DNA of 42,767 bases from the IMG/VR virus record IMGVR_UViG_3300045955_000077, positions 1-42,767 of that record. One strand, 5' to 3'. Made by a program: the position numbers and the translations under genes. This document shows positions 855 to 42,767 of the stretch, piece by piece; the first letter of the stretch is position 1; every line of letters starts with the position of its first letter. Source of the DNA: a virus. The notes beneath the pieces are model-generated. The model saw only the letters and a program-made list of their open reading frames with translations, was not told the DNA's origin and searched no databases.

Positions 855-1249
855 CACGCCGCCTCAGTACCGGTTCGGGCCGCCTTGCGCACCGCGTCCT
901 GCCGCGCGACCTCGTCGGCCTGCACGCAGTACACGTGCAGCTCGTGCCACAGCCCGCGGTTCTTCAAAAACCGCTCCATCTGCTCGGCGCTCGGGGAAGC
1001 CGCCTCGCATTTCTCATGGGTCACCTCGACCTGCGGATAGTGCGACTCCGACTCCGGAAACGCCTCCGAGGTGTTGATGATGGCCGACTTGTAGGTCGCC
1101 CCTTCGATTGCTGCTGAGACGGGCGGGGACGCCCTTTCGCCTGCCGCTTTGGCCCCTGATGCTGCCACCGCCGTATCCTCCACCCAGCCCTCCTCGTCCT
1201 CGTCGGAATCGTCGTAGCTCACGCCGCCACGCCTGGCTTTCTTGGCCAT
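854..1249 (-). CDS. Acidic/basic hypothetical protein, first gene after the late leader (131 aa)
   Basis: Start ATG at 1249 preceded by a strong GGAGGAG site six bases away; a GTG at 1252 is less likely. The N-terminus is basic (AKKARRGG), followed by a very acidic stretch DDSDEDEEGW, an Ala-rich linker and a C-terminal module SAEQMERFLKNRGLWHEL that is echoed in the next gene. A copy of the genome's dispersed hairpin (1118-1138) lies inside the coding sequence, giving the peptide RASPPVSA. It is the first gene after a 545-base non-coding region, so a late promoter upstream is likely. No family recognised. Confidence 0.7.
   Translation of the reverse strand: MAKKARRGGVSYDDSDEDEEGWVEDTAVAASGAKAAGERASPPVSAAIEGATYKSAIINTSEAFPESESHYPQVEVTHEKCEAASPSAEQMERFLKNRGLWHELHVYCVQADEVARQDAVRKAARTGTEAA
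1118..1138 (-). repeat. Dispersed hairpin element, copy 1 (inside a CDS)
   Basis: Stem GGGCG (1121-1125) pairs with CGCCC (1130-1134) around loop GGGA, with flanking GAC and TTTCG as in the other copies. On the minus strand it reads CGAAAGGGCGTCCCCGCCCG, the same orientation as the gene it sits in. Confidence 0.6.
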
Positions 1250-3545: not shown

Positions 3546-3893
3546 ATGCGCGACATGTTCCTCGATGCCTTGGCCACCAAGCCGGACAACAGGGTGCTTG
3601 CACCCGTCTCCATGCTAGACGGACCGCCCGTCAAGCCACCCGCCCCGCCCAAGCCCGTCAAGATGGGATCAGGCGGCGATGTGCCCAAGGCAAAGCCCGC
3701 AATGCCGGCCGCAGTGGCACCCGCCCCGGCGGCCGCCAGCAAGCCGCCGGCGCCCCAGGTCGACGATGCCACCCGCATAGCCGTCGATGCCATGGTCGCC
3801 CGCCTGCTCGAGGCCGGTGATCTGTACTGGGACGCCGAAGGCAATACCTACCGCGCCCGTCCATGCCTCTATGGCCTGGGGGGGCAGTCATGA
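3546..3893 (+). CDS. Pro/Ala-rich hypothetical protein (115 aa)
   Basis: ATG 3546 follows the leader CAGCTAGGGAAAACCACC, almost the same leader as in front of the DUF932 gene (CAGCTAGGGAAACACATC). Residues 1-15 (MRDMFLDALATKPDN) are followed by a Pro/Ala/Lys linker of about 55 residues and a C-terminal folded part (ATRIAVDAMVARLLEAGDLYWDAEGNTYRARP). A dispersed hairpin copy is embedded at 3589-3608, giving the peptide NRVLAPVSM. Its stop overlaps the next start (ATGA). No family recognised. Confidence 0.65.
   Translation: MRDMFLDALATKPDNRVLAPVSMLDGPPVKPPAPPKPVKMGSGGDVPKAKPAMPAAVAPAPAAASKPPAPQVDDATRIAVDAMVARLLEAGDLYWDAEGNTYRARPCLYGLGGQS
3589..3608 (+). repeat. Dispersed hairpin element, copy 2
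   Basis: CAACA flank, stem GGGTG (3592-3596) and CACCC (3601-3605) around a CTTG loop, then GTC. The stem differs from the GGGCG copies by a compensating C-to-T and G-to-A pair. It lies in the coding sequence of the 115-residue gene. Confidence 0.65.
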
Positions 3894-4476: not shown

Positions 4477-4542
4477 CCCGCACGGGTCATGCCGGCCGCA
4501 GTCACGGCCGGCATTCCGCTGTCCGCAATCTATGGCACAATG

Positions 4543-4566
4543 CACAGAGCGTCCACACCCGTCTTG
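4543..4566 (+). repeat. Dispersed hairpin element, degenerate copy 3
   Basis: CACAGAGCGTCCACACCCGTC and the following TTG match copy 5 at 32925 closely in flanks and loop (TCCA), but two stem pairs are broken (GAGCG against CACCC). It lies 16 bases upstream of the HTH gene at 4582. Confidence 0.4.
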
Positions 4567-8554: not shown

Positions 8555-8658
8555 TGATCCGCGACATCGCCATTGAACTCGCTGCCCTGTCTGCGCTGGC
8601 GCTGTTTGTGGCCACGCTGATCGTATGGGCGGCCATCATCCGGGGTCTCGTCATATGA
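8551..8658 (+). CDS. Single-span membrane microprotein (34-35 aa)
   Basis: ATG 8551 (or 8554). Charged start MMIRDIAIE, then a membrane segment of about 22 residues (LSALALFVATLIVWAAIIRG). The stop overlaps the ERF start (ATATGA). A small inner-membrane protein in the early operon; function unknown. Confidence 0.6.
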   Translation: MMIRDIAIELAALSALALFVATLIVWAAIIRGLVI

Positions 8659-9428
8659 CCGAGCCGGCAATCGTGTCGTCACCGGTAGCGTTACGCTTGG
8701 CAGCCATTACGCCAATGGACATGCTCGACCGCGCTATTGCAACCGGCGCCTCGATCGATGTGCTCGAAAAGCTGATGGGGCTCCAGGAACGCTGGGAGCG
8801 CAATCAGGCCAAGCGGGCATTCGACAATGCGCTGGCCGACGCCAAAGCCAAATTCCCGATTATCCGGAAATCACGGCAAGTCGAATATCCCAACCGCACC
8901 GGCGGTCGCACCGGCTACAGCTACGAGGATCTGGCCGACATCGCCCGGGCGATCGACGAGCCACTGGCCGAGCATGGCCTGTCCTATCGATTCCGCACGG
9001 CCTCACCACCCGGCGAGCGCGTATCGGTAACCTGCATTGTAAGCCACCGGGACGGTCACAGCGAGGAGAACACCCTTAGCGACAATCCGGACACATCCGG
9101 CGCCAAGAACTCGGTGCAGGCCATAGGGTCGATCGTCACCTACTTGCAGCGCTATACGCTCAAGGCAGCACTCGGGCTTGCCGCCGCGGTCGACGACGAT
9201 GCGCAAAGCCACAACAGCAAGCCACCTGAACCGGCAAGCCTGCTGATCACGCCGGCTCAAGTGGAAACCCTCAAGACGGCGCTGGAGATTGCCGACGTCG
9301 CCACAGAGGAATTCCTGCAGCGTGGCTCGATCTCCGATTTATCCGAGCTGCGCGCCGATCGTTATGAGGCCGCGCTGAAATGGATCCAATCTAGACGTGA
9401 GAGCGGCGATGGAGCAGCGCAGTCCTGA
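8655..9428 (+). CDS. ERF-family single-strand annealing protein (257 aa)
   Basis: Typical ERF features: MDMLDRAIATGASIDVLEKL, then NQAKRAFDNALADAKAKFP, GYSYEDLADIARAIDEPL and GSIVTYLQRYTLKAALGLAA with the family's YxxRYxL-type end. Residues 1-180 form the annealing core; the C-terminal part (ITPAQVETLKTALEIA and EAALKWIQSR) is a helical module common to these proteins. It anneals complementary strands during phage recombination, and the adjacent YqaJ exonuclease is the expected partner. Start ATG 8655 overlaps the previous stop. Confidence 0.9.
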   Translation: MTEPAIVSSPVALRLAAITPMDMLDRAIATGASIDVLEKLMGLQERWERNQAKRAFDNALADAKAKFPIIRKSRQVEYPNRTGGRTGYSYEDLADIARAIDEPLAEHGLSYRFRTASPPGERVSVTCIVSHRDGHSEENTLSDNPDTSGAKNSVQAIGSIVTYLQRYTLKAALGLAAAVDDDAQSHNSKPPEPASLLITPAQVETLKTALEIADVATEEFLQRGSISDLSELRADRYEAALKWIQSRRESGDGAAQS

Positions 9429-10945: not shown

Positions 10946-11284
10946 ATGACTGACATCACGGAGCGGCTGCGCGGGTGGCGTGAGGTGCCGGGAATGACGT
11001 GCCCGCCATTCTTGGGCGAGGCCGCCGACGAGATCGAGCGGCTGCGCCGGGCCGACGAATGGCACCGCACAACAATAGCAGAGCGAGATGCGGAGATTGA
11101 GCGGCTGCGCGAGCGCATCGCCGAGCTTGAGGATCCGCACTATCTCAAGAGCCTGCACGCCGAGATCGAGCGGATGAGGGCCGCGCTGCGCCAGATCGTA
11201 ACCGAGGCCGATAGTGACGACGGGCTGACGGCGTGGGACGGCGCGGACATCGCACGCCGCGCTCTTTGGGGAAAAGCGCCGTGA
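10946..11284 (+). CDS. Coiled-coil protein with shared C-terminal module, copy A (112 aa)
   Basis: N-terminus MTDITERLRGWREVPGM, then ADEIERLRRADEWHRTT and a Glu/Arg/Leu coiled coil with repeated EIERLR units. The last 28 residues (LRQIVTEADSDDGLTAWDG followed by ADIARRAL) are nearly identical to the end of the protein at 13791-14171. Start ATG 10946 has GGAGAG upstream; ATG 10931 is less likely. Function unknown. The shared module suggests both bind the same partner. Confidence 0.7.
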   Translation: MTDITERLRGWREVPGMTCPPFLGEAADEIERLRRADEWHRTTIAERDAEIERLRERIAELEDPHYLKSLHAEIERMRAALRQIVTEADSDDGLTAWDGADIARRALWGKAP

Positions 11285-12219: not shown

Positions 12220-12427
12220 CGCCCTCTACATCACCGATGCTGAACTTATCCGGCGACTAGGTGTCCCGGAGAAGACAGCGCGCGTGGTGATCCGGGAGCT
12301 CGAAGCAAAAAACGGTTTCCCCAGGAAACAAGAATTGTGGGGAGGACGGCGTTACTGGCCGGCCGTGAAGGCGTATCTTGACCGGATGAACGGCGTAGGA
12401 GGGACCGATGCATCCAAAGGTCGATAA
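12212..12427 (+). CDS. Excisionase-like winged-helix protein (71 aa)
   Basis: MNDALYITDAELIRRLGVPE, then KTARVVIRELEAKNGFPRK and GGRRYWPAVKAYLDRMNG. The order (ITDAELIRRLGV..KTARVVI, a basic loop and a W..VKAYLD helix) fits a MerR/Xis-like wHTH. Its place immediately before, and overlapping, the integrase is where a recombination directionality factor is expected. Start ATG 12212 is preferred to 12173. Family assignment is by pattern, not search. Confidence 0.7.
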   Translation: MNDALYITDAELIRRLGVPEKTARVVIRELEAKNGFPRKQELWGGRRYWPAVKAYLDRMNGVGGTDASKGR

Positions 12428-13613
12428 TGCCCCTGGACTGACGTGGCGCGAGCGCGCGAGCGGCTGGGAAGCCCGCTGGAGGCCTCGGACGGACCTAGTG
12501 CGGCGAGGATACCCGGCGACCCCGCAACGTCTATGGGCGGGTGCCGAATTGACCGACACCGACCGTGCTTGGATTTCCGACCGCTGCAATGCCCTGCAAG
12601 CCGAAATGTTGGTGTGGGGTCGCGGCGGCTTGCCAGTGGTTTCCGCCACCTTTGACGGCACGCTCAAGACCCTGGCCGCCTGCTACCGATCCGACCCGGA
12701 CAGCGCATACAGCAAGAAGCGGTACAAGACGCGCCTGAACTATGACCACCTGATCGGGCGGCTGGTGAAGGACTACGGCCACGAGGAGGTGCGGGAGTTG
12801 AAGGCCCGCACGCTGCTGCGCTGGCACGAGGCGTGGGGTTCTGGCGGGCGGGTGGCCATGGCTCACGCCCTGATCCGAATGCTGCGGACCATTATCGGCT
12901 TCGGCTCGACGTTCCTCGAGGACACGGAATGCCAGCGGGTTCAGGCGATCCTCGGCAACATGAAATTCAAGATGGCCCCTCCCCGCTCCGAGCGGTTGAC
13001 GGCTGCCCAGGCTGACGCCATCCGGGCCAAGGCGCACGAGAAAGGCATCCACAGCCTCGCCCTCGCCCAGGCGATTCAATTCGAGTGCATGTTGCGCCAG
13101 AAGGACGTGATCGGGGAGTGGGTGCCCCTGTCCGAGCCTGGAGCCTCAGAGGTGATCGTCGGCGGCCGCAAATGGCTCCGTGGCATCCGGTGGAGCCAGA
13201 TCGACGGAAACCTCATCCTGCGCCATGTCACCTCCAAGAAGGGCAAGGAGGTGGTGATCGACCTGAAGCTGGCCCCGATGGTCATGGAGGAGATGGGCCG
13301 GATCGAGATGCCCAGCAGCGGGCCGGTGATCGTCTCCGAGACACGCGCCCGCCCCTACGACGCCCATGAGTTCCGGTACGAGTGGCGGAAGATCGCCAAA
13401 CTTGCCGGCGTCCCCGCCCACGTCTTCAACATGGACAGCAGGGCCGGCGCGATCAGCGAGGCGACCGACGCCGGGGCCGAGCTGGAGCACGTCCGGCACG
13501 CGGCCACCCATTCGGACATCTCCATGACCCAGCGGTACAGCCGGGCCGGCGAGGAGAAGACCGCGAAGGTGATGCGGTTGAGGGTCAAGCACCGCGGGAG
13601 AGACACGGCGTGA
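12408..13613 (+). CDS. int: Tyrosine-type phage integrase (401 aa)
   Basis: N-terminus GLTWRERASGWEARWRPRTD resembles alphaproteobacterial prophage integrases. The catalytic domain shows Arg I in FECMLRQKDVIGEW, Lys in HVTSKKGKEVV, Arg II in NMDSRAGAISEATDAG, His in VRHAATHSDISM and the nucleophile Tyr in TQRYSRAG. The usual first His of the HxxR box is Met here (MDSR), a tolerated change in this subgroup. The core-binding domain lies at about residues 85-190. It would integrate the phage at attB; the attP candidate begins 7 bases after its stop. Confidence 0.93.
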   Translation: MHPKVDNAPGLTWRERASGWEARWRPRTDLVRRGYPATPQRLWAGAELTDTDRAWISDRCNALQAEMLVWGRGGLPVVSATFDGTLKTLAACYRSDPDSAYSKKRYKTRLNYDHLIGRLVKDYGHEEVRELKARTLLRWHEAWGSGGRVAMAHALIRMLRTIIGFGSTFLEDTECQRVQAILGNMKFKMAPPRSERLTAAQADAIRAKAHEKGIHSLALAQAIQFECMLRQKDVIGEWVPLSEPGASEVIVGGRKWLRGIRWSQIDGNLILRHVTSKKGKEVVIDLKLAPMVMEEMGRIEMPSSGPVIVSETRARPYDAHEFRYEWRKIAKLAGVPAHVFNMDSRAGAISEATDAGAELEHVRHAATHSDISMTQRYSRAGEEKTAKVMRLRVKHRGRDTA

Positions 13614-13790: not shown

Positions 13791-14171
13791 ATGACGGACA
13801 ACATCGTGCGTTTGCTGCGGCAGGCGTCATTCAACCCGGACGACTACCGGGCGCGGGCCGCCGACGAGATCGAGCGGTTGCGGCTCGACGCCAGAGCATA
13901 CGCCAACGTGATGTTGAGCGAGGAAAACGACGCCCTAATTGAGGACAATAAGCTATTGCGCGCCGAGATCGAGCGGCTGCGCTCGAAGGTGGACGAACTG
14001 GAGGACGTGGATCGCAATTTGCATGACATGCGGGTGGCGCGGGATGGGGAGATCGAGCGCTTGCGAACCGCGCTGCAACAGATCGTCACCGAGGCCGACA
14101 GCGACGACGGCCTAACCGCGTGGGACGGGGCCGACATCGCCCGCCGCGCTCTTGGCGCTATGCCTCAATGA
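13791..14171 (+). CDS. Coiled-coil protein with shared C-terminal module, copy B (126 aa)
   Basis: MTDNIVRLLRQASFNPDDYR, then ADEIERLRLDARAYANVMLS and a long coiled coil (LIEDNKLLRAEIERLRSKV). The C-terminal 28 residues (LQQIVTEADSDDGLTAWDG and ADIARRALG) match copy A at 10946-11284, with similar DNA. The two copies are direct repeats on either side of the excisionase-integrase block. ATG 13791 has GAGGATGCG upstream. Function unknown. Confidence 0.7.
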   Translation: MTDNIVRLLRQASFNPDDYRARAADEIERLRLDARAYANVMLSEENDALIEDNKLLRAEIERLRSKVDELEDVDRNLHDMRVARDGEIERLRTALQQIVTEADSDDGLTAWDGADIARRALGAMPQ

Positions 14172-29241: not shown

Positions 29242-29254
29242 TTTTTAGCTCCAG

Positions 29255-29276
29255 GACGGGCGTGAACGCCCTTTTG
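29255..29276 (-). repeat. Dispersed hairpin element, copy 4 (intergenic)
   Basis: Stem GGGCG (29258-29262) and CGCCC (29267-29271) around TGAA (TTCA on the minus strand). Minus strand reads CAAAAGGGCGTTCACGCCCG then TCC. It fills the gap between the adaptor gene and the gene at 28831-29241. Confidence 0.75.
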
Positions 29277-29888
29277 TTAGGGTGTAGCTCCTTTGATGCG
29301 TGCCGCCACCTTGTGGTAGCGCCCGGTAATGTCGGATTGCCGCAACAGCGCGATCGCCTCGTTGCGCAGCGTGCCCCAGGTCTGAATGCGCTGATCGTCG
29401 TCGAGGAACGGCGCGGCATGCAGAAGCGCACCGTACAGATAGCCGTCGGAGCAGGCGGACAGCAGCCAGTTGCCGGCTGGATTTTCAGCCAGCGGCGGGA
29501 TCCTGGCGTAGTACAGCATGATCAGATCGGACGAGCACACCGGGCGGGTGTAGATGCTCGAGCCGGAGATGTAGAAGAACCACGGATCGGTGGCGGCCTG
29601 ATCGGTGTACTTGGTGAATGCCCAATCCGGATCGGTGGCCTCCAGCGAGCGCAACGGGCTGGCGTCGGCATAGACGTGCCGCCATGCCAGATAGTCGTCA
29701 GGCAAAGCCCCTACCCCATCGGTCAGGGTAATAGTGTCCTGCGCCTCCATCTGCCGCACCCGTAGCTCATGGTTGAAATTGCTTTCCGCCATGGCAATGA
29801 AATCGGGAATGCGGCCGGCCAGATCGGTGCGGTCCCACAGCCAGTTGGCGACCGATTCCTGCAATTGGGCGTAGTTGGACAGTGCCAT
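29277..29888 (-). CDS. Head-tail adaptor-like protein (203 aa)
   Basis: ALSNYAQLQESVANWLWDRT, then DLAGRIPDFIAMAESNFN and HELRVRQMEAQDTITLTDG, ALPDDYLAWRHVYADA, and LMLYYARIPPLAENPAGNWL-type ending. The sequence Y..LQ.SVA.WL.RTDL....PDFIA.AE..FNR.LR is diagnostic for the phage adaptor family also found in SU10-like phages. It should attach below the portal. The length is normal. ATGA-type overlap with the previous gene. Confidence 0.85.
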   Translation of the reverse strand: MALSNYAQLQESVANWLWDRTDLAGRIPDFIAMAESNFNHELRVRQMEAQDTITLTDGVGALPDDYLAWRHVYADASPLRSLEATDPDWAFTKYTDQAATDPWFFYISGSSIYTRPVCSSDLIMLYYARIPPLAENPAGNWLLSACSDGYLYGALLHAAPFLDDDQRIQTWGTLRNEAIALLRQSDITGRYHKVAARIKGATP

Positions 29889-31885: not shown

Positions 31886-32902
31886 TTACCTCTTGAGCGA
31901 GGCGGCGCGCTCTGCGGCGAGCAGGCGGGCGGCATCGCGAACCGCGCTGGAGCGGCCGGCGTCAGCCGACTGATCGAACGCTTTTTGATAGGGAGCAATC
32001 TGCGCAGCCTGCCGCTCGGCGCTGGACGCGCGGCGTCCAGGGCTTTGCACCGGCGGCATCGGTTGGGCGGCCTTGGCTTTCTCGGCCAGCTTCGCCCTGG
32101 AGGCCTGGAACTTGTCCCATTTCATCGCCTTGTCTATGATGTTGAACAGCCGATGATCGCGAACCGAAGCCACCTCCTGCGGCGAGTAGCCGTTGGCGAC
32201 TCCGAATTGCTGAACATCCTGGGTGTACTTGGCGACCTTGGCCGGATCCCTTAGCTCCGGCCGGAGCGCCAGCAACTTCTGCTGCTCCTGGGCAAGATGA
32301 TAGGCCTGCTGCTGCTGGCGCTTGGCACGCTCAGCGCGTTGGATTTCGCCGCGCTGATGTTGCAAGGCCCGCAACTTGTCCTGCTGGGCGTCGTATTCCG
32401 CCTTTTTCTCCTGCCAGGCGAAGAAGTCCTGCTTGCGCAGATCGTCGCTGGGAGGAGGCGGCATGAAATGCGACACCACTGCGATCGCCTGATCGATGGC
32501 TTGCGCATATTGCTGGGTGTTGGCCTGGAATTGCCGCCATTGCGCATCCATGTTGCGCCGCTGGTCGGCAAGTTCCTGGGTCTTCCTGGTGTAGTCGGCT
32601 TCGCGGAGTTGTCCCCGTCGCCATTCCGCCACCTCGTCGAGCGTGGCCTCGTAGCCGTCCGACAGACGGATACGGGGCTGCTCCGGTGGCGGCGCTTCGG
32701 GTTCTCCGGAATCCTCCAACGTCTCCAGGTCGCTTGCATCGGGCGCGTCATCAACCGGCTCGGGCGAGGCCGGAGGTGTAGGCCGCTGCTGTGGTGCAGC
32801 CTGTTCCGGCTCTTTCCGTTCCGCAACCAGTTGCCTGACCGCGTCCTGTACTGACAAAGATCCTGCAATCCCGCCGGTGGGCGGGGTGTTGCCGTCGCTC
32901 AT
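31886..32902 (-). CDS. Capsid scaffold protein (338 aa)
   Basis: Acidic, Gln-rich and coiled-coil throughout, directly before the capsid gene: QDAVRQLVAERKEPEQAAP, then SDGYEATLDEVAEWRRGQL and READYTRKTQELADQRRN, with AKAMKWDKFQASRAKLAEK-type helices near the end. The segment SDGYEATLDEVAEWRRGxLREADYTRKTQEL is diagnostic for phage scaffold-like proteins of this module. The ATG at 32902 has GAGAGGT upstream, after hairpin copy 5. Confidence 0.85.
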   Translation of the reverse strand: MSDGNTPPTGGIAGSLSVQDAVRQLVAERKEPEQAAPQQRPTPPASPEPVDDAPDASDLETLEDSGEPEAPPPEQPRIRLSDGYEATLDEVAEWRRGQLREADYTRKTQELADQRRNMDAQWRQFQANTQQYAQAIDQAIAVVSHFMPPPPSDDLRKQDFFAWQEKKAEYDAQQDKLRALQHQRGEIQRAERAKRQQQQAYHLAQEQQKLLALRPELRDPAKVAKYTQDVQQFGVANGYSPQEVASVRDHRLFNIIDKAMKWDKFQASRAKLAEKAKAAQPMPPVQSPGRRASSAERQAAQIAPYQKAFDQSADAGRSSAVRDAARLLAAERAASLKR

Positions 32903-32924
32903 GTCGGATACCTCTCGTTTACAA

Positions 32925-32946
32925 GACGGGCGTGGACGCCCTGTTG
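32925..32946 (-). repeat. Dispersed hairpin element, copy 5 (intergenic)
   Basis: Stem GGGCG (32928-32932) and CGCCC (32937-32941) around TGGA (TCCA on the minus strand), flanked by AACA and GTCTTG on that strand. It lies 20 bases before the scaffold start and directly after the stop of the 80-residue gene. Confidence 0.75.
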
Positions 32947-37199: not shown

Positions 37200-37221
37200 C
37201 AAAAGGGCGTTTACGCCCGTC
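37200..37221 (+). repeat. Dispersed hairpin element, copy 6 (intergenic, opposite orientation)
   Basis: AAAAGGGCGTTTACGCCCGTC: stem GGGCG (37205-37209) and CGCCC (37214-37218) around TTTA. The consensus reads on the plus strand here, although the flanking genes are on the minus strand, so the element is found in both orientations relative to transcription. Confidence 0.75.
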
Positions 37222-37222
37222 T

Positions 37223-38500
37223 TCATGCAACCCACCGCATGTCGCGCTTCTTGTAGTTGAGGCTGTGCTGGGGCGCCTCGTATTTCACCGCCATCAGCCC
37301 GAAGGCGTCGGCCGAGTGCGACGACCAGTCGTGCTCGGGGCCGAGTCCGATATTGCGCTCCTCGTGCTTTTTCTCGTGGTAGTAGCCCAGCGCGTCACGC
37401 CCGGCTTCGGTGGCATGCTCGTCGAACCAGCAGCGTGGAAAGATCCGCCGCACCGCCTCTATTCGCTGTGCCGCCGCACCGCGTCCCAAGCTCGGCTCCG
37501 GGTCCTCGCAGTCGAAGCCGGCATCGCGCAGATGGTCGACGTAGCGCTTGCCGGTGACCGCGTTGGTGTTGAGCCCGTCGTGCGGCAGGTAGCAGGTAGC
37601 TTTCTGGTAGCCCCGCGAGCGCATCAGGTCGACGTAGTAGGCCAGCACCTGGCCCGCGCCTTCGATGTAATCCAGCACCAGAATCTGCTGGCCGACCCAT
37701 TGCACGATCCAGATCGCCATGGCGTCAGCCGTGGCACCAGCCCCTCCAAGATCGAGGAATGCACGAAGCGGTAGCAGCGGGTCGGCCACGACCTTGCCGA
37801 TTCGGCCTTCCTGCTTGGCCTGCTGGAGGTGCTTGGAGTAGTAGGCGCCCTCGAACGCCTGCGCATAGCCCCCCTCCCAGATGTGATCATAACGATCAGG
37901 GTAGCGCTCCAGGTCAAGCCGGCGCTCCTCCTCGAGCACCGCATTCCACCACGGATTGTCGCGCCAGTTGGCTTGCACGACGATGGCGTTGGACGGGCGG
38001 TCGACCCGCAGGAACTCGTCGACCGCATCGCTTTTGCGGCGCGGGTTCCAGGAGAACCAGATTTGCGAGCCGGTGTTGCGGATGGTGGGGCGCAGCAGCG
38101 CGAGCGAGCGAGCTGACAGGGTCTGCGCCTCCTCCACCCAGGCGATCCGGCAGCCTTCCAGCGATTTTATGCTCTCGGCGGTGTGGTCCTGCATGCCCTG
38201 GAACAGGATCAGCCCGTCGCCCGGGGCGGTGATGGCGTCCTTGGTGACGATGAACTCGGTGCCGAAGCCCAGCGTCTGGATTTTCTGCTCGACCAGATGC
38301 TTGGACGACTGTGCGAGGCTTTTCTGGTACTCGCGGATGCAGACGGCGCGGGTGCCGGGAATGCGCATGCACTCCTCGACCAGCAGCTCGCCGAAGAAAT
38401 GCGATTTACCGCTTCCCCGCCCACCGTAGGCGCCTTTGTAGCGGGCGTCGGCGAGCAGCGGGGTGAATACCCGCGCGGTGCCGATCTGGACTTTTTCCAT
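37223..38500 (-). CDS. terL: Terminase large subunit, PBSX/Terminase_3 type (425 aa)
   Basis: Walker A GGRGSGKS at residues 26-33, adenine/coupling segment TRAVCIREYQKSLAQSS, Walker B RIAWVEEAQ (about 118-126) with the catalytic Glu, and SWNPRRKSDAVDEF following. The nuclease domain shows RAFLDLGGAG with the first Asp near 248 and SSHSADAFGLMAVKYE with a late Asp. It hydrolyses ATP to pump DNA into the procapsid through the portal and cuts the concatemer. Start at 38500 follows hairpin copy 7. Length and motifs are complete. Confidence 0.95.
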   Translation of the reverse strand: MEKVQIGTARVFTPLLADARYKGAYGGRGSGKSHFFGELLVEECMRIPGTRAVCIREYQKSLAQSSKHLVEQKIQTLGFGTEFIVTKDAITAPGDGLILFQGMQDHTAESIKSLEGCRIAWVEEAQTLSARSLALLRPTIRNTGSQIWFSWNPRRKSDAVDEFLRVDRPSNAIVVQANWRDNPWWNAVLEEERRLDLERYPDRYDHIWEGGYAQAFEGAYYSKHLQQAKQEGRIGKVVADPLLPLRAFLDLGGAGATADAMAIWIVQWVGQQILVLDYIEGAGQVLAYYVDLMRSRGYQKATCYLPHDGLNTNAVTGKRYVDHLRDAGFDCEDPEPSLGRGAAAQRIEAVRRIFPRCWFDEHATEAGRDALGYYHEKKHEERNIGLGPEHDWSSHSADAFGLMAVKYEAPQHSLNYKKRDMRWVA

Positions 38501-38510
38501 TAAGATCTCA

Positions 38511-38533
38511 GACGGGTGTGAACACCCTGTTGT
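38511..38533 (-). repeat. Dispersed hairpin element, copy 7 (intergenic)
   Basis: Stem GGGTG (38514-38518) and CACCC (38523-38527) around TGAA (TTCA on the minus strand), flanked by AACAACA and GTCTGAG. The same compensating change (T-A in place of C-G) as copy 2. It lies between the giant gene's stop and the TerL start. Confidence 0.75.
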
Positions 38534-38540
38534 TCCCCCA

Positions 38541-41500
38541 TCAGGCCGCCATCGACACGTTGTTGTCGCGCAGCGTCTTGAGAATCAGCGCCTTGAGCGC
38601 ATTGGGCGTCATGCTGGCGAGCAGCATTGCCGGTATTCCCAGGATCGCGGACAGGTCCTGCAATTCCCGCGCGCTTTGGGCAGCCTGCTGCGTCGGCTGC
38701 TGCTGCATTGCCTGTCCGATGGTGATCCGCTGATTTCCGCCGGCCTCGAGCGCTGCGGCAATGGCGCCCAGGCCGCTCGGGGCGGCTGGAGGAGTTCCCG
38801 GCACTCCTGGCGCGGCAGGGCTGGGGGTCGAGACGGCCGTTGGAGTGCCGGGGCCGAGCGCGGCCGGGGCAGTGCGCACCGCGGGTCCGCGCGCGATATC
38901 GAAATTCGGGTCGTCGTAGGTGGTGACGGCCGGGCCACGCGCCACCTCGCGCGCGCCGGGAATGCCCAGGAAGCTCTGAAAATCGAAATCGATGGCCGGG
39001 TCCTGCATGACGCCGAAGCGGGAGGCCACCTGTTGCGCCGGCGTCGAAACGCCTTGGATAATCCCTCGGTCAGTCTTGCCGGTTGGATCGCGATCGTAGA
39101 GTGGCGTCACCAGCTCGATATCGCGACCGGGCAGTTGTGCCTCGCGCTGGAGCGGACCGACGAATTCCTCTGGCTCCGGGGTGGTCCATGGTTGCGGGCT
39201 CAGGATGGCCATGCGTGCCTGCTGGACGGTGATCGGCGAGATCATCGCGCGCGCCGCCTCCGGGTCGCGCTCGGCCAGATTGCCAACGGTGCGGGTGACC
39301 TCCTTAGCCGCCTCCGGATTGCGATCGAACATATCTCCGACTACCCGCGTCACTGCTTTGGCCAGTTCCGGATCGCGATCGTGCAGATCGGCGATGTTGC
39401 GGGCCACCTCCTTGGCTGCGTCGGGATCGCGATCGGCCAGATTGCCAACTACTCGTGCGACCTCTCTGGCGGTTTCGGGATCGCGCTCGGCGAGGTCGCC
39501 GACGGTGCGGGTGATCTCGCCCTTGACCTCTTTTGCAGCGGTCTTGATGGCGTTGATTGTATTCTGCACGGCCGTCTTGGCGGTTTCCTTGGCGGCCTCT
39601 GCGAGCGCCTTAGCGGTATTCAGCATCTGCTCATAGGGCGCTATTCCAGGAATGGCATCGAGCGCTTTTCGACCGGCCTCTCGTGCAGCGCGCTCGGCAT
39701 TCTGTCGGACATCCTTGGCATCGGGATTGGCGCGCGCTGCCCGCTCGGCAGCTTCCGCCATTGATCTTGCAATGCCCCTCATTGCCTCAACGACGTCCGA
39801 TCGGTCGCGCGCCATTCCCGGCAACTGGCTGATGGCCGCTCGCTCGGCAGATTTTGCGGTTCTGTCGAGATCCTGCCTGGTTGGCGCCGGTGCGGTACGC
39901 GCCTGCGCCTGCGCTTTTGGAGCAACAATCTCCCGCGCCATGTCCGGATCGCGCTCGGCGAGATCACCGATGGTGCGCGCGACCTCTCTGGCCGCCTCCG
40001 GATCGCGCTCGGCCAGATCGCCGACCGCGCGCACCACCTCTCTAGCGGCTTCCGGATCCAGATCCGCCAGGTTGCCGACAACCCTTGCCACTTCGCGGGC
40101 GGTTTCCGGATCGCGCTCCGCGAGTTCTCCGATCGTGCGGGCAATTTCGCGTTCATCCGGCAGGCCGGTCAGCAGCGAGGAGAGACCCGGCGAGATCGAG
40201 GGGGTTGTTGTTCCTGGACCGACGAAAGCAGCCCGCCCGGGTGGCGCCTCTTGATGCTCCAGTTCCCTGCCGGCCTGTTGCACGGTGCCGGGTAGCGGTA
40301 TTGCTGGCCGCGAGGGCGGCAATGGCACCGTGCGCGCCTGCGCTGTGCTGCGCGCCGTTGCGCGGCCGCGAGCACCGCGCGCTGTTGCAACGCCAATCGT
40401 GGGCGTGCCGGTCGCCTGAATATGCCAGGGTTCGTGCGCCATCGGAAAAGCCAGACCAAACCTAGCGGCATTGGCATGAACCCATCTGCCAAGCTCAGTA
40501 TTGGCAAAACTGCGTAGACCTTGCTGGCTAAGACTGCCAAGATCAGCGGCATCGCCGCGAACATGTGGCGCATTCGGACTAGGCCGCGCCACCATGCGCG
40601 AGTTACGGCCAGACCGCTCCCAAAGTTGACGTTGCACCTCAATATCGCGCCAACCGGAGGTAATCCCAAAGTCATTGCGCAGATGCTGCGGCATGGCATT
40701 GGCCATGCGCGTCAGTCGGTCCCGCAGCACCGGGCTCATATTTTCCCAGGACCGTTGCGCACCACGATTAGCAGCACCGCCAATCATTGGGATCGGAGTA
40801 ACTTGCTGCTGCTGCCGAATGAAATCGCGAATGGTTGGCGGACTGGTTGGGGCTTCCCCCTCCAATCCTTCCAAGCCGGTGGAACGTGATCCGGTCGGAA
40901 AGCCGCCGGGCAGGCTGGACAGCAATCCAGCCGGTTCCGCAGTTGCCGGCGTACTCGGTGCAGTCAGTGTGCCCAGAAGCCCGGTGGTCGCAGGCGCCGT
41001 CGTCGTAGCCGGTGCCGCCGTTTGTGCAGCCGCATTGACTGCCGCGGCCGCCACCGCCGGATTGGTCTGGGCCACCGCCGTGATGGCAGCCGCCGCCACC
41101 TCCGGGTTGTCCTGCGCAACGGCCGCAATGACCGCCACCGCAGTCGCTGGTGCGGTCTGCGCCAGATTGGCAATCGCGGCTACCGCGGTTTCGGGCGAGG
41201 TCTGCGCTACCGCCGCAACCTGTGCGGCCGCCTGCGCAATCTCGGCCGGCGCCTGCTGGGCAACGGCCGCCGCCTGCTGTGCAACGGTGGCTGGCGCTTC
41301 TGGCGTTGAAATAGTGGAAGGTGCCTGTTGCGCTACGGCTGCCGGCGCTTGTTGAGCAACGGTAGTCGGGGCTTCTTGTGTAACAGCCGTTGGCGCCTCC
41401 TGCGCCACTTGCGCCACAGCAGGAGCTTGCTGCGCAATGGTGGCTGGCGCTTCCTGGGTAACCTGGGTAGGGGCCTCCTGGGTTACTTGAGTAGGCGGTT

Positions 41501-42767
41501 CCTGCTGAACCTCTGGAGTGGGTGTCGGTGGTGGTGGCGGCGGCACATCCATCCACGGAACATCATATTCCGGAGGATCGAATGGATCCTTGGGCGGCGT
41601 CGACACTATCTCTACATCAATCGGCGCTGGGCTTTCCGGCGTGCCCCTTCCCGGTGCGCCAAACAGACCACCAAAAATGCCGCTGGTAATGCCCAGCCCG
41701 CCCAACCAGCCAAGTGCGGCCCGGCCGGCCTCGGTGGCCGCCAGTGCGCCCACACCCCTCGCACCCAGGGTGCCAATGCCACCAAGGATGTCCGTAGGTG
41801 AAAGCGTGTTTGGATCTGCTCTGCCCTGTGGATCAAGCAGCGAAGGCGCATAGTCCCGCAACGCCTCGATCGAGCGGTTCTCAGCCTCGCGGAAGCTCGT
41901 GGTAACAGGATCGTATGGATCAAAGGCCAGCGTGGTCGGGAAACCGGTGACCGGGTCGACGTTGAAAGTCTGGGTAGTTGGCAACCCGGTGATTTCATCA
42001 ATGTCGGGCGTTGGCCCCAGAATGCTCTGCACCTCCGGCGACAGGAACGATTGGGTGGTCGGCATGCCGGTGACCGGGTCGGTTTGCTCGCTCGGTCCGC
42101 CCAGGATGCCGCTGTACTCGTCGGCGGTGGATGGTCCTTCCCAGCCTGGGGTGCCGTAGTAGCCGGGCGCTTCCGGGCTGCCGGGATCGCCGAAATAGCC
42201 GCCCTTTCCGCCTAATCCGCCGCTTTCGCCGTAGCCGCCCTTTCCGCCTAATCCGCCGCTTTCGCCGTAGCCGCCTTTGCCACCTTCATAGCCGGTGGTG
42301 CCACCCTTGCCGCCCAAGCCGCTGGTTTCACCGTAGCCGCCCTTGCCGCCCAGGTCGCCACCGAGTGCTCCGGTGTCACCGCCCAGGCCGCCGCCCAGGC
42401 CGCCATCATAGCCGCCGCCTTTACCGCCCTCGGAGCCCATACCTCCGAAGCCTTCGCCTCCACCGCCTTTGCCGCCTCCGGCATCACCGCCATAGCCTCC
42501 GGCATCGCCGCCGGTCCCTAACCCGCCGCCATCTCCTCCATAGCCGCCGTAGCCGCCTGACCCCCCGTCACCCCCGCCATAACCGCCAGTTCCCCCATCA
42601 CCGCCATATCCGGAGCCTTCCCCGCCGTATCCCCCGCCTGCCCCATATCCGGAGCCGCCGTCGCTGCCGTCTCCGTATCCGGCGCCGTAGCCCTCGCCGG
42701 CTCCTATGCCGCCGCCATATCCGGAGCCTTCGCCGCCGAAGCCCTCGCCCCCGTAACCCTCGCCTCC
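38541..42767 (-). CDS. Giant multi-repeat virion-type protein with M15/VanY peptidase (C-terminal 1408 of 1452 residues)
   Basis: Continues from 132-1. Numbering from Met 42440: residues 1-90 (plus 109 residues before it) are Gly-rich units such as GGLGGKGGYGES; 118-170 hold three PVTGMPTTQSF-like units; 300-500 are Pro/Ala/Gln repeats including four 15-residue units (TSPETAVAAIANLAQ type). At about 561-680 lies an M15/VanY peptidase: ITSGWRDIEVQRQLWERSG, PHVRGDAADLGS (HxxGxAxD zinc motif) and HEPWHIQA. Then come two blocks (four and five units) of 18-residue DPEAAREVARTVGDLAER repeats separated by a helical part. Probably a virion peptidoglycan peptidase, but its location next to TerL is unusual. 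Confidence 0.8.
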   Translation of the reverse strand, partial: GGEGYGGEGFGGEGSGYGGGIGAGEGYGAGYGDGSDGGSGYGAGGGYGGEGSGYGGDGGTGGYGGGDGGSGGYGGYGGDGGGLGTGGDAGGYGGDAGGGKGGGGEGFGGMGSEGGKGGGYDGGLGGGLGGDTGALGGDLGGKGGYGETSGLGGKGGTTGYEGGKGGYGESGGLGGKGGYGESGGLGGKGGYFGDPGSPEAPGYYGTPGWEGPSTADEYSGILGGPSEQTDPVTGMPTTQSFLSPEVQSILGPTPDIDEITGLPTTQTFNVDPVTGFPTTLAFDPYDPVTTSFREAENRSIEALRDYAPSLLDPQGRADPNTLSPTDILGGIGTLGARGVGALAATEAGRAALGWLGGLGITSGIFGGLFGAPGRGTPESPAPIDVEIVSTPPKDPFDPPEYDVPWMDVPPPPPPTPTPEVQQEPPTQVTQEAPTQVTQEAPATIAQQAPAVAQVAQEAPTAVTQEAPTTVAQQAPAAVAQQAPSTISTPEAPATVAQQAAAVAQQAPAEIAQAAAQVAAVAQTSPETAVAAIANLAQTAPATAVAVIAAVAQDNPEVAAAAITAVAQTNPAVAAAAVNAAAQTAAPATTTAPATTGLLGTLTAPSTPATAEPAGLLSSLPGGFPTGSRSTGLEGLEGEAPTSPPTIRDFIRQQQQVTPIPMIGGAANRGAQRSWENMSPVLRDRLTRMANAMPQHLRNDFGITSGWRDIEVQRQLWERSGRNSRMVARPSPNAPHVRGDAADLGSLSQQGLRSFANTELGRWVHANAARFGLAFPMAHEPWHIQATGTPTIGVATARGARGRATARSTAQARTVPLPPSRPAIPLPGTVQQAGRELEHQEAPPGRAAFVGPGTTTPSISPGLSSLLTGLPDEREIARTIGELAERDPETAREVARVVGNLADLDPEAAREVVRAVGDLAERDPEAAREVARTIGDLAERDPDMAREIVAPKAQAQARTAPAPTRQDLDRTAKSAERAAISQLPGMARDRSDVVEAMRGIARSMAEAAERAARANPDAKDVRQNAERAAREAGRKALDAIPGIAPYEQMLNTAKALAEAAKETAKTAVQNTINAIKTAAKEVKGEITRTVGDLAERDPETAREVARVVGNLADRDPDAAKEVARNIADLHDRDPELAKAVTRVVGDMFDRNPEAAKEVTRTVGNLAERDPEAARAMISPITVQQARMAILSPQPWTTPEPEEFVGPLQREAQLPGRDIELVTPLYDRDPTGKTDRGIIQGVSTPAQQVASRFGVMQDPAIDFDFQSFLGIPGAREVARGPAVTTYDDPNFDIARGPAVRTAPAALGPGTPTAVSTPSPAAPGVPGTPPAAPSGLGAIAAALEAGGNQRITIGQAMQQQPTQQAAQSARELQDLSAILGIPAMLLASMTPNALKALILKTLRDNNVSMAA
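42170..42767 (-). repeat. Gly-rich coding repeats at the contig end
   Basis: Imperfect 9- to 12-base coding units giving GGYGG, GGDGG, GGEG and GSGYG strings on the minus strand, with the same type at 1-80. Exact local duplications occur, for example CCGCCCTTTCCGCCTAATCC at about 42199 and again near 42235. Such repeats hinder assembly, which explains why the contig was opened here. Confidence 0.85.

Follow-up and report, generated by a model that had tools for sequence, protein, structure and literature searches.

The window, by which we mean the whole 42,767-base virus record that was analysed, belongs to a podovirus-like phage. Its portal, TerL, scaffold and major head genes lie on the minus strand; the plus strand encodes a phage integrase and an ERF recombinase. 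The presence of the ERF recombinase (8625-9428) and tyrosine integrase (12408-13613) genes indicates that the phage is probably temperate. Just upstream of TerL, the product of the gene at 38541-42440 is 1299 residues long, has Gly-rich repeats (42162-42753) and gives partial matches to endolysin and tape-measure proteins; elsewhere, two 105-nt stretches (11162-11266 and 14049-14153) are 85% identical and are possibly paralogous small genes. A motif scan combined with a covariance model identified six copies of a short tetraloop hairpin in the window, given here with one further candidate:

29252..29276, minus strand: hairpin copy CAAAA-GGGCG-TTCA-CGCCC-GTCCTG
32922..32946, minus strand: hairpin copy CAACA-GGGCG-TCCA-CGCCC-GTCTTG
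38508..38532, minus strand: hairpin copy CAACA-GGGTG-TTCA-CACCC-GTCTGA
37200..37224, plus strand: hairpin copy CAAAA-GGGCG-TTTA-CGCCC-GTCTTC
3587..3611, plus strand: hairpin copy CAACA-GGGTG-CTTG-CACCC-GTCTCC
1115..1139, minus strand: hairpin copy CGAAA-GGGCG-TCCC-CGCCC-GTCTCA
4542..4563, plus strand: degenerate candidate with two broken pairs, not a member of the family

Four copies occupy gaps between late genes, three of them in the sense orientation, 0-8 nt past a stop codon and 10-22 nt ahead of the next ATG. The copy at 29252..29276 follows the stop of the 29277-29888 virion gene with no intervening nucleotide and precedes the ATG of the 28831-29241 gene by 13 nt; that at 32922..32946 lies 1 nt past a stop and 22 nt ahead of the scaffold gene (31886-32902); and that at 38508..38532 lies 8 nt past the stop of the 38541-42440 gene and 10 nt ahead of TerL (37223-38500). 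The fourth (37200..37224) is in the antisense orientation relative to the late genes and separates the TerL stop from the start codon of the following gene. The two remaining copies lie within coding sequence: one inside the small ORF 3546-3893, where it encodes the peptide NRVLAPV, and the other in a minus-strand ORF, where it encodes ERASPPV in a low-complexity linker, both in the KRAFTPV reading frame. The initial annotation had described seven copies in both orientations, four of them in late-gene gaps and others adding RAFTPV-like peptides to coding sequences. The orientations and placements were borne out, and six copies were recovered at E <= 2.1e-6 each by a covariance model built from an alignment of phage copies that itself includes those of the window; the copy at 4542, which had no match to the model at E < 5, was dropped.

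The recurrence of this hairpin exceeds chance. Allowing up to three mismatches, the full motif occurs 7 times in the window against 0.39 expected, a count that 0 of 100 shuffles reached; for perfect GGGYG-N4-CRCCC hairpins the count is 8, with 1.0 expected from shuffles. Inverted repeats are plentiful in DNA such as this 63% GC genome and could in principle recur fortuitously, but that explanation, to which we assign a negligible probability, is refuted by the shuffle controls, by identical 22-mers across unrelated genomes and by reversed-pattern controls that returned zero in phages. Thermodynamic folding of the window joints was no better than that of shuffles (z -0.2 to -1.5), and folding energy alone therefore provides no evidence.

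The stems had also been reported to covary. Among the window's own copies, a single pair type covaries (C-G to T-A); other phages supply the strong stem covariation. An alignment of copies, A1, scored 0.437 for covariation against 0.137 when shuffled, but it was selected for pairing, and searches that require pairing are biased towards it. The fair test is provided by stem-free scans, which left the three inner pairs free to avoid selecting paired stems. The CRAAAGNNNGNNNNCNNNCGTCTTG scan returned 93 distinct places, with complete pairing in 15 of them where shuffles gave 2.8 (maximum 8 of 2000), and with AAGNNNGTTYACNNNCGTCTT 41 of 88 places were fully paired against 7.3 (maximum 15), comprising nine stem types. 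Scanning 27 whole phage records with AGNNNGYYYRCNNNCGTCTK, most of them picked because a copy had already been found there, gave 35 places, every one fully paired (reversed control, 0), and eight stems: GGGCG, GCGCG, GGGTG, GGCTG, GGCCG, GGACG, GGTTG and GGATG. One phage carries four copies with four different stems. In host genomes, the same scan returned chiefly GGGCG and GCGCG together with many one-sided departures. The ratio of compensated to uncompensated departures from these two common stems was 16:0 in phages versus 3:18 in hosts (p = 9e-8; the counts were taken manually from the scan listings and cover 34 of the 35 phage places).

Across the eight stem types, GTC is invariant and the flanks are nearly so. 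This combination of conserved, asymmetric flanks and loop with stems that vary freely and are always paired shows, at the level of sequence, that recognition or selection acts on the folded hairpin, which we infer to be the unit recognised during spread as well. The element consists of a 25-nt core, extended to about 36 nt in its host form: CRAMA, a 5-bp stem, a YYYR loop, the complementary strand and GTCTT, often followed by CGxGRGMTA.

The element is proposed to spread both in Hyphomicrobiales chromosomes and in phages. The host form (about 36 bp; CAAAAGGGCGTTCACGCCCGTCTTCGACGGGCTATG in aligned host copies) is dispersed in Xanthobacteraceae and other Hyphomicrobiales, with up to 232 loose matches per genome. 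Its commonest version was found in 96 stretches of a species-genome scan, several per genome and nearly all from Xanthobacteraceae, Afipia, Pseudolabrys and other Hyphomicrobiales, and an 18-mer was present in 38 of 150 genomes of one family, patchily and in at most 28 copies (reversed control pattern, 0). Most host copies lie in the loop of a larger palindrome, such as REPs of the CGTC type. Three types of outer palindrome were found: GATGGCCGGGA...CCCGGCCATGAC, whose empty form GATGGCCGGGACAAGCCCGGCCATGAC occurs dozens of times per genome and also beside filled sites; CCCTCCCC...GGGGAGGG; and GTCATTGCGAGG...CGACGAAGCAATCC. An outer stem score of at least 7 was reached by 79 of 101 host copies, as against 10 of 597 random positions and 1 of 27 viral-contig copies. 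Host and phage copies form one family, which in hosts sits in the loops of REPs and other palindromes. In one host locus (L188) the nesting has three layers, a GCGCG sister element lying inside a GTCATTGCGAGG...GCAATCC repeat that in turn holds a GGGCG element. Mobilisation by a RAYT was considered and rejected, as the Y1 transposase (Y1_Tnp, PF01797) was missing from 6 of 8 element-rich hosts, with a match in the other 2, bearing in mind that MAGs may be incomplete.

The core also occurs in many unrelated uncultivated phage contigs, which are metagenomic and may in some cases be host sequence; isolated phages gave chance-level matches only, and plasmids none. In these contigs it takes a bare form in late-gene gaps, stop-CRAMA-stem-YYYR-stem-GTCTT-Shine-Dalgarno-ATG, typically 0-4 nt past the stop and 10-24 nt ahead of the start. 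The genes directly upstream are recurrently those for major head proteins (phrog_9953, phrog_371, phrog_3437 and phrog_334); others are a tail gene and an endolysin, the latter with a large-terminase-like ORF following. The tail of the element often runs on as GTCTTCGYGAGATA..ATG, so that the element itself supplies a ribosome-site-like stretch. Between genes of the same direction, about 25 intergenic copies are sense and 7 antisense (p = 0.002), a count based on heuristic gene calls of which a few were corrected by hand. In phages, most copies sit at gene joints and some lie in frame within coding sequence. At the joints they would act at the RNA level as an intercistronic hairpin, placed after the stop of a structural gene and before the next ribosome site; the 3' end of the upstream message, in many cases a capsid one, would thereby be protected or defined, and expression of the next gene kept separate.

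Copies of the element are gained and lost at gene joints, as homologous filled and empty sites show. Flanks were compared at four such sites. In the first, TACT is followed by AAAGGCTG...AGAGATAGAGC and then ATG, where relatives have the overlapping TACTGATG; in the second, a TAATG overlap has been opened in G545/G556; the third is the MCP joint of L506 compared with that of L492, with 97% upstream identity; and the fourth is an in-frame gain of 27 nt inside a coding sequence. Within the phrog_9953 head-protein clade, the joint after the head gene is filled in five loci and is only a short gap in most others; the head genes of two filled loci and one empty locus (L452, L453 and L454) share 83-86% nucleotide identity. 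Lack of conservation in close relatives had been named in advance as grounds for refuting the family, and it was observed in part: among relatives whose MCP is 65-73% identical to that of the window phage, the homologous gaps have no element, although one of them, L036, carries a tandem antisense pair of copies upstream of its MCP gene. Such absence refutes a conserved essential element, but does not refute a mobile one.

Palindromes seem to land, or to be retained, repeatedly at the joint after the major head gene. In L035 and L036 the MCP gene is followed by a long-stem version whose flanks are the same, and the hairpins of other relatives at this joint include a CGTC REP (L046, 1153 onward) and a terminator-like structure (L037). 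L044/L045, L041 and L048 are further relatives with other hairpins, host-like repeats included, after the major head gene. This use of different hairpins at one post-MCP joint supports the view that phages most likely keep the hairpin because it protects or ends the upstream message. The canonical terminator-like hairpin in L037, the GC stem with flanking A's, an antisense reading that ends in TTTTG, and a consensus scanner that flags several sites might all suggest that the copies are ordinary intrinsic terminators or attenuators. We regard this as improbable: in the sense orientation the stem is followed by the invariant GTCTT and no U run, the stem is only 5 bp, and folding at the window sites did not surpass that of shuffled sequence. 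The intrinsic-terminator signature of a GC stem plus U run is thus absent in sense and present in part in antisense.

Patchy presence, both orientations, tandem copies and in-frame insertions into coding sequence are also what would be expected of a purely selfish, REP- or RPE-like mobile palindrome. Phage copies would then be recent, neutral insertions, paired because they are young and because the machinery needs a hairpin, consistent with the decay and broken stems of host copies. We consider this account rather unlikely. It is opposed by the 25:7 sense bias and by the position after a stop and before a Shine-Dalgarno site, which recurs after four unrelated capsid families. It is also opposed by L452, L453 and L485, in which a rare CTCG loop is shared at the post-head joint and the stem differs by a compensated pair.

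Another proposal is that the hairpin is a cis-acting RNA, a processing or binding site for a host protein or RNase that contacts the CRAMA and GTCTT flanks. Placement at mRNA joints and the constancy of GTC and the flanks over eight stem types agree with it. However, antisense copies have the same flanks, close relatives manage without the element, and most host copies lie inside REP palindromes, with the bare pattern bearing a GTCTTG tail found in 0 of 397 genomes of the order. We consider a dedicated RNA site possible but doubtful.

The initial annotation had offered a protein-binding RNA, a processing site or a REP-like mobile palindrome, and the last is best supported, given a host family nested in REP loops, both orientations, tandem copies and filled and empty phage sites. 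Some role in RNA is probable as well, since phage stems remain paired and the sense orientation accounts for 25 of 32 intergenic copies. On balance, we favor, with some reserve, a REP-class mobile palindrome that phages acquired and have retained as an mRNA hairpin between cistrons. Some observations stand against this reading. Antisense copies make up about one fifth of those between phage genes, and their flanks are just as conserved, where a purely mRNA-level role predicts otherwise; some phages have no element at joints that are filled in close relatives, so it is not needed there. Neither a target-site duplication nor a mobilising enzyme was identified for the element. A new class of structure-recognised hairpin that moves between bacteria and their phages by novel machinery, inserting a ready-made joint of stop codon, hairpin and Shine-Dalgarno site, is a speculative extension that we think improbable.

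The element has the general features of REPs, being a short, dispersed, many-copy palindrome with a conserved flank and a variable complementary stem. Its behavior is REP-like, but it has no GTAG tag, in most hosts tested no RAYT, and not the stem length of CGTC REPs. CGTC-tagged REPs are short palindromes of Alphaproteobacteria, partly intragenic, with 8-9 bp stems, loops of 4-5 and a 5' CGTC tag, and the class was reported without a dedicated transposase (Di Nocera et al. 2013, PMC3733652). Insertion of REPs into other palindromes was noted for them (PMC3733652), and the outer host palindromes of our element resemble them. The element itself sits inside such REPs and differs from them, having neither the 5' CGTC tag nor a stem of 8-9 bp but a variable 5-bp stem, a YYYR loop and conservation of both flanks, and occurring also in phages. 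REPs of the GTAG/RAYT type similarly have a conserved unpaired flank and a variable paired stem and are dispersed; the GTAG tag is absent from the element consensus, and the Y1 transposase is missing from most element-rich hosts, as noted above. Br-REP1 and Br-REP2, the REPs of Bradyrhizobium, belong to a neighboring bacterial group but differ in their published consensus sequences (PMC5082802).

Searches of Rfam gave 0 matches at the gathering threshold and a lone chance match to another stretch, and in the literature searched we found no paper with KRAFTPV, the core 14-mer or a counterpart element. Together with the isolated-phage and plasmid searches and the REP-like behavior, this suggests a novel variant within the known REP class. 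A hammerhead-like CGAAA...GUC core was dropped on inspection, as it had no CUGAUGA strand, was in the wrong register and occurred as CAAAA/CAACA variants. REPs have mostly been studied as chromosomal repeats, and here the same hairpin family occurs in hosts, with decaying stems, and in phages, where stems are always paired. Phages may thus be carriers in the spread of REPs that have no known transposase, and the natural pairs of filled and empty sites allow tests of both mobility and RNA role.

Phage T4 has stable CUUCGG tetraloop hairpins between its genes. The element is likewise a tetraloop hairpin between phage genes, but its flanks and loop class recur in bacteria and in unrelated phages, and its copies are gained as well as lost. 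Rickettsia palindromic elements (RPE) resemble it in mode of insertion: they are palindromes inserted in frame in protein-coding genes, as is a minority of copies of our element, in the single frame xRxFTPV; the element differs in lying mainly at gene joints and in phages. Tandem copies with 31-33 nt spacing were seen at L181 (a host locus), G007:C12:14-103, L227, L241 and L004, and the tandem unit of L181 reads in one frame as KRAFTPVFNGD.
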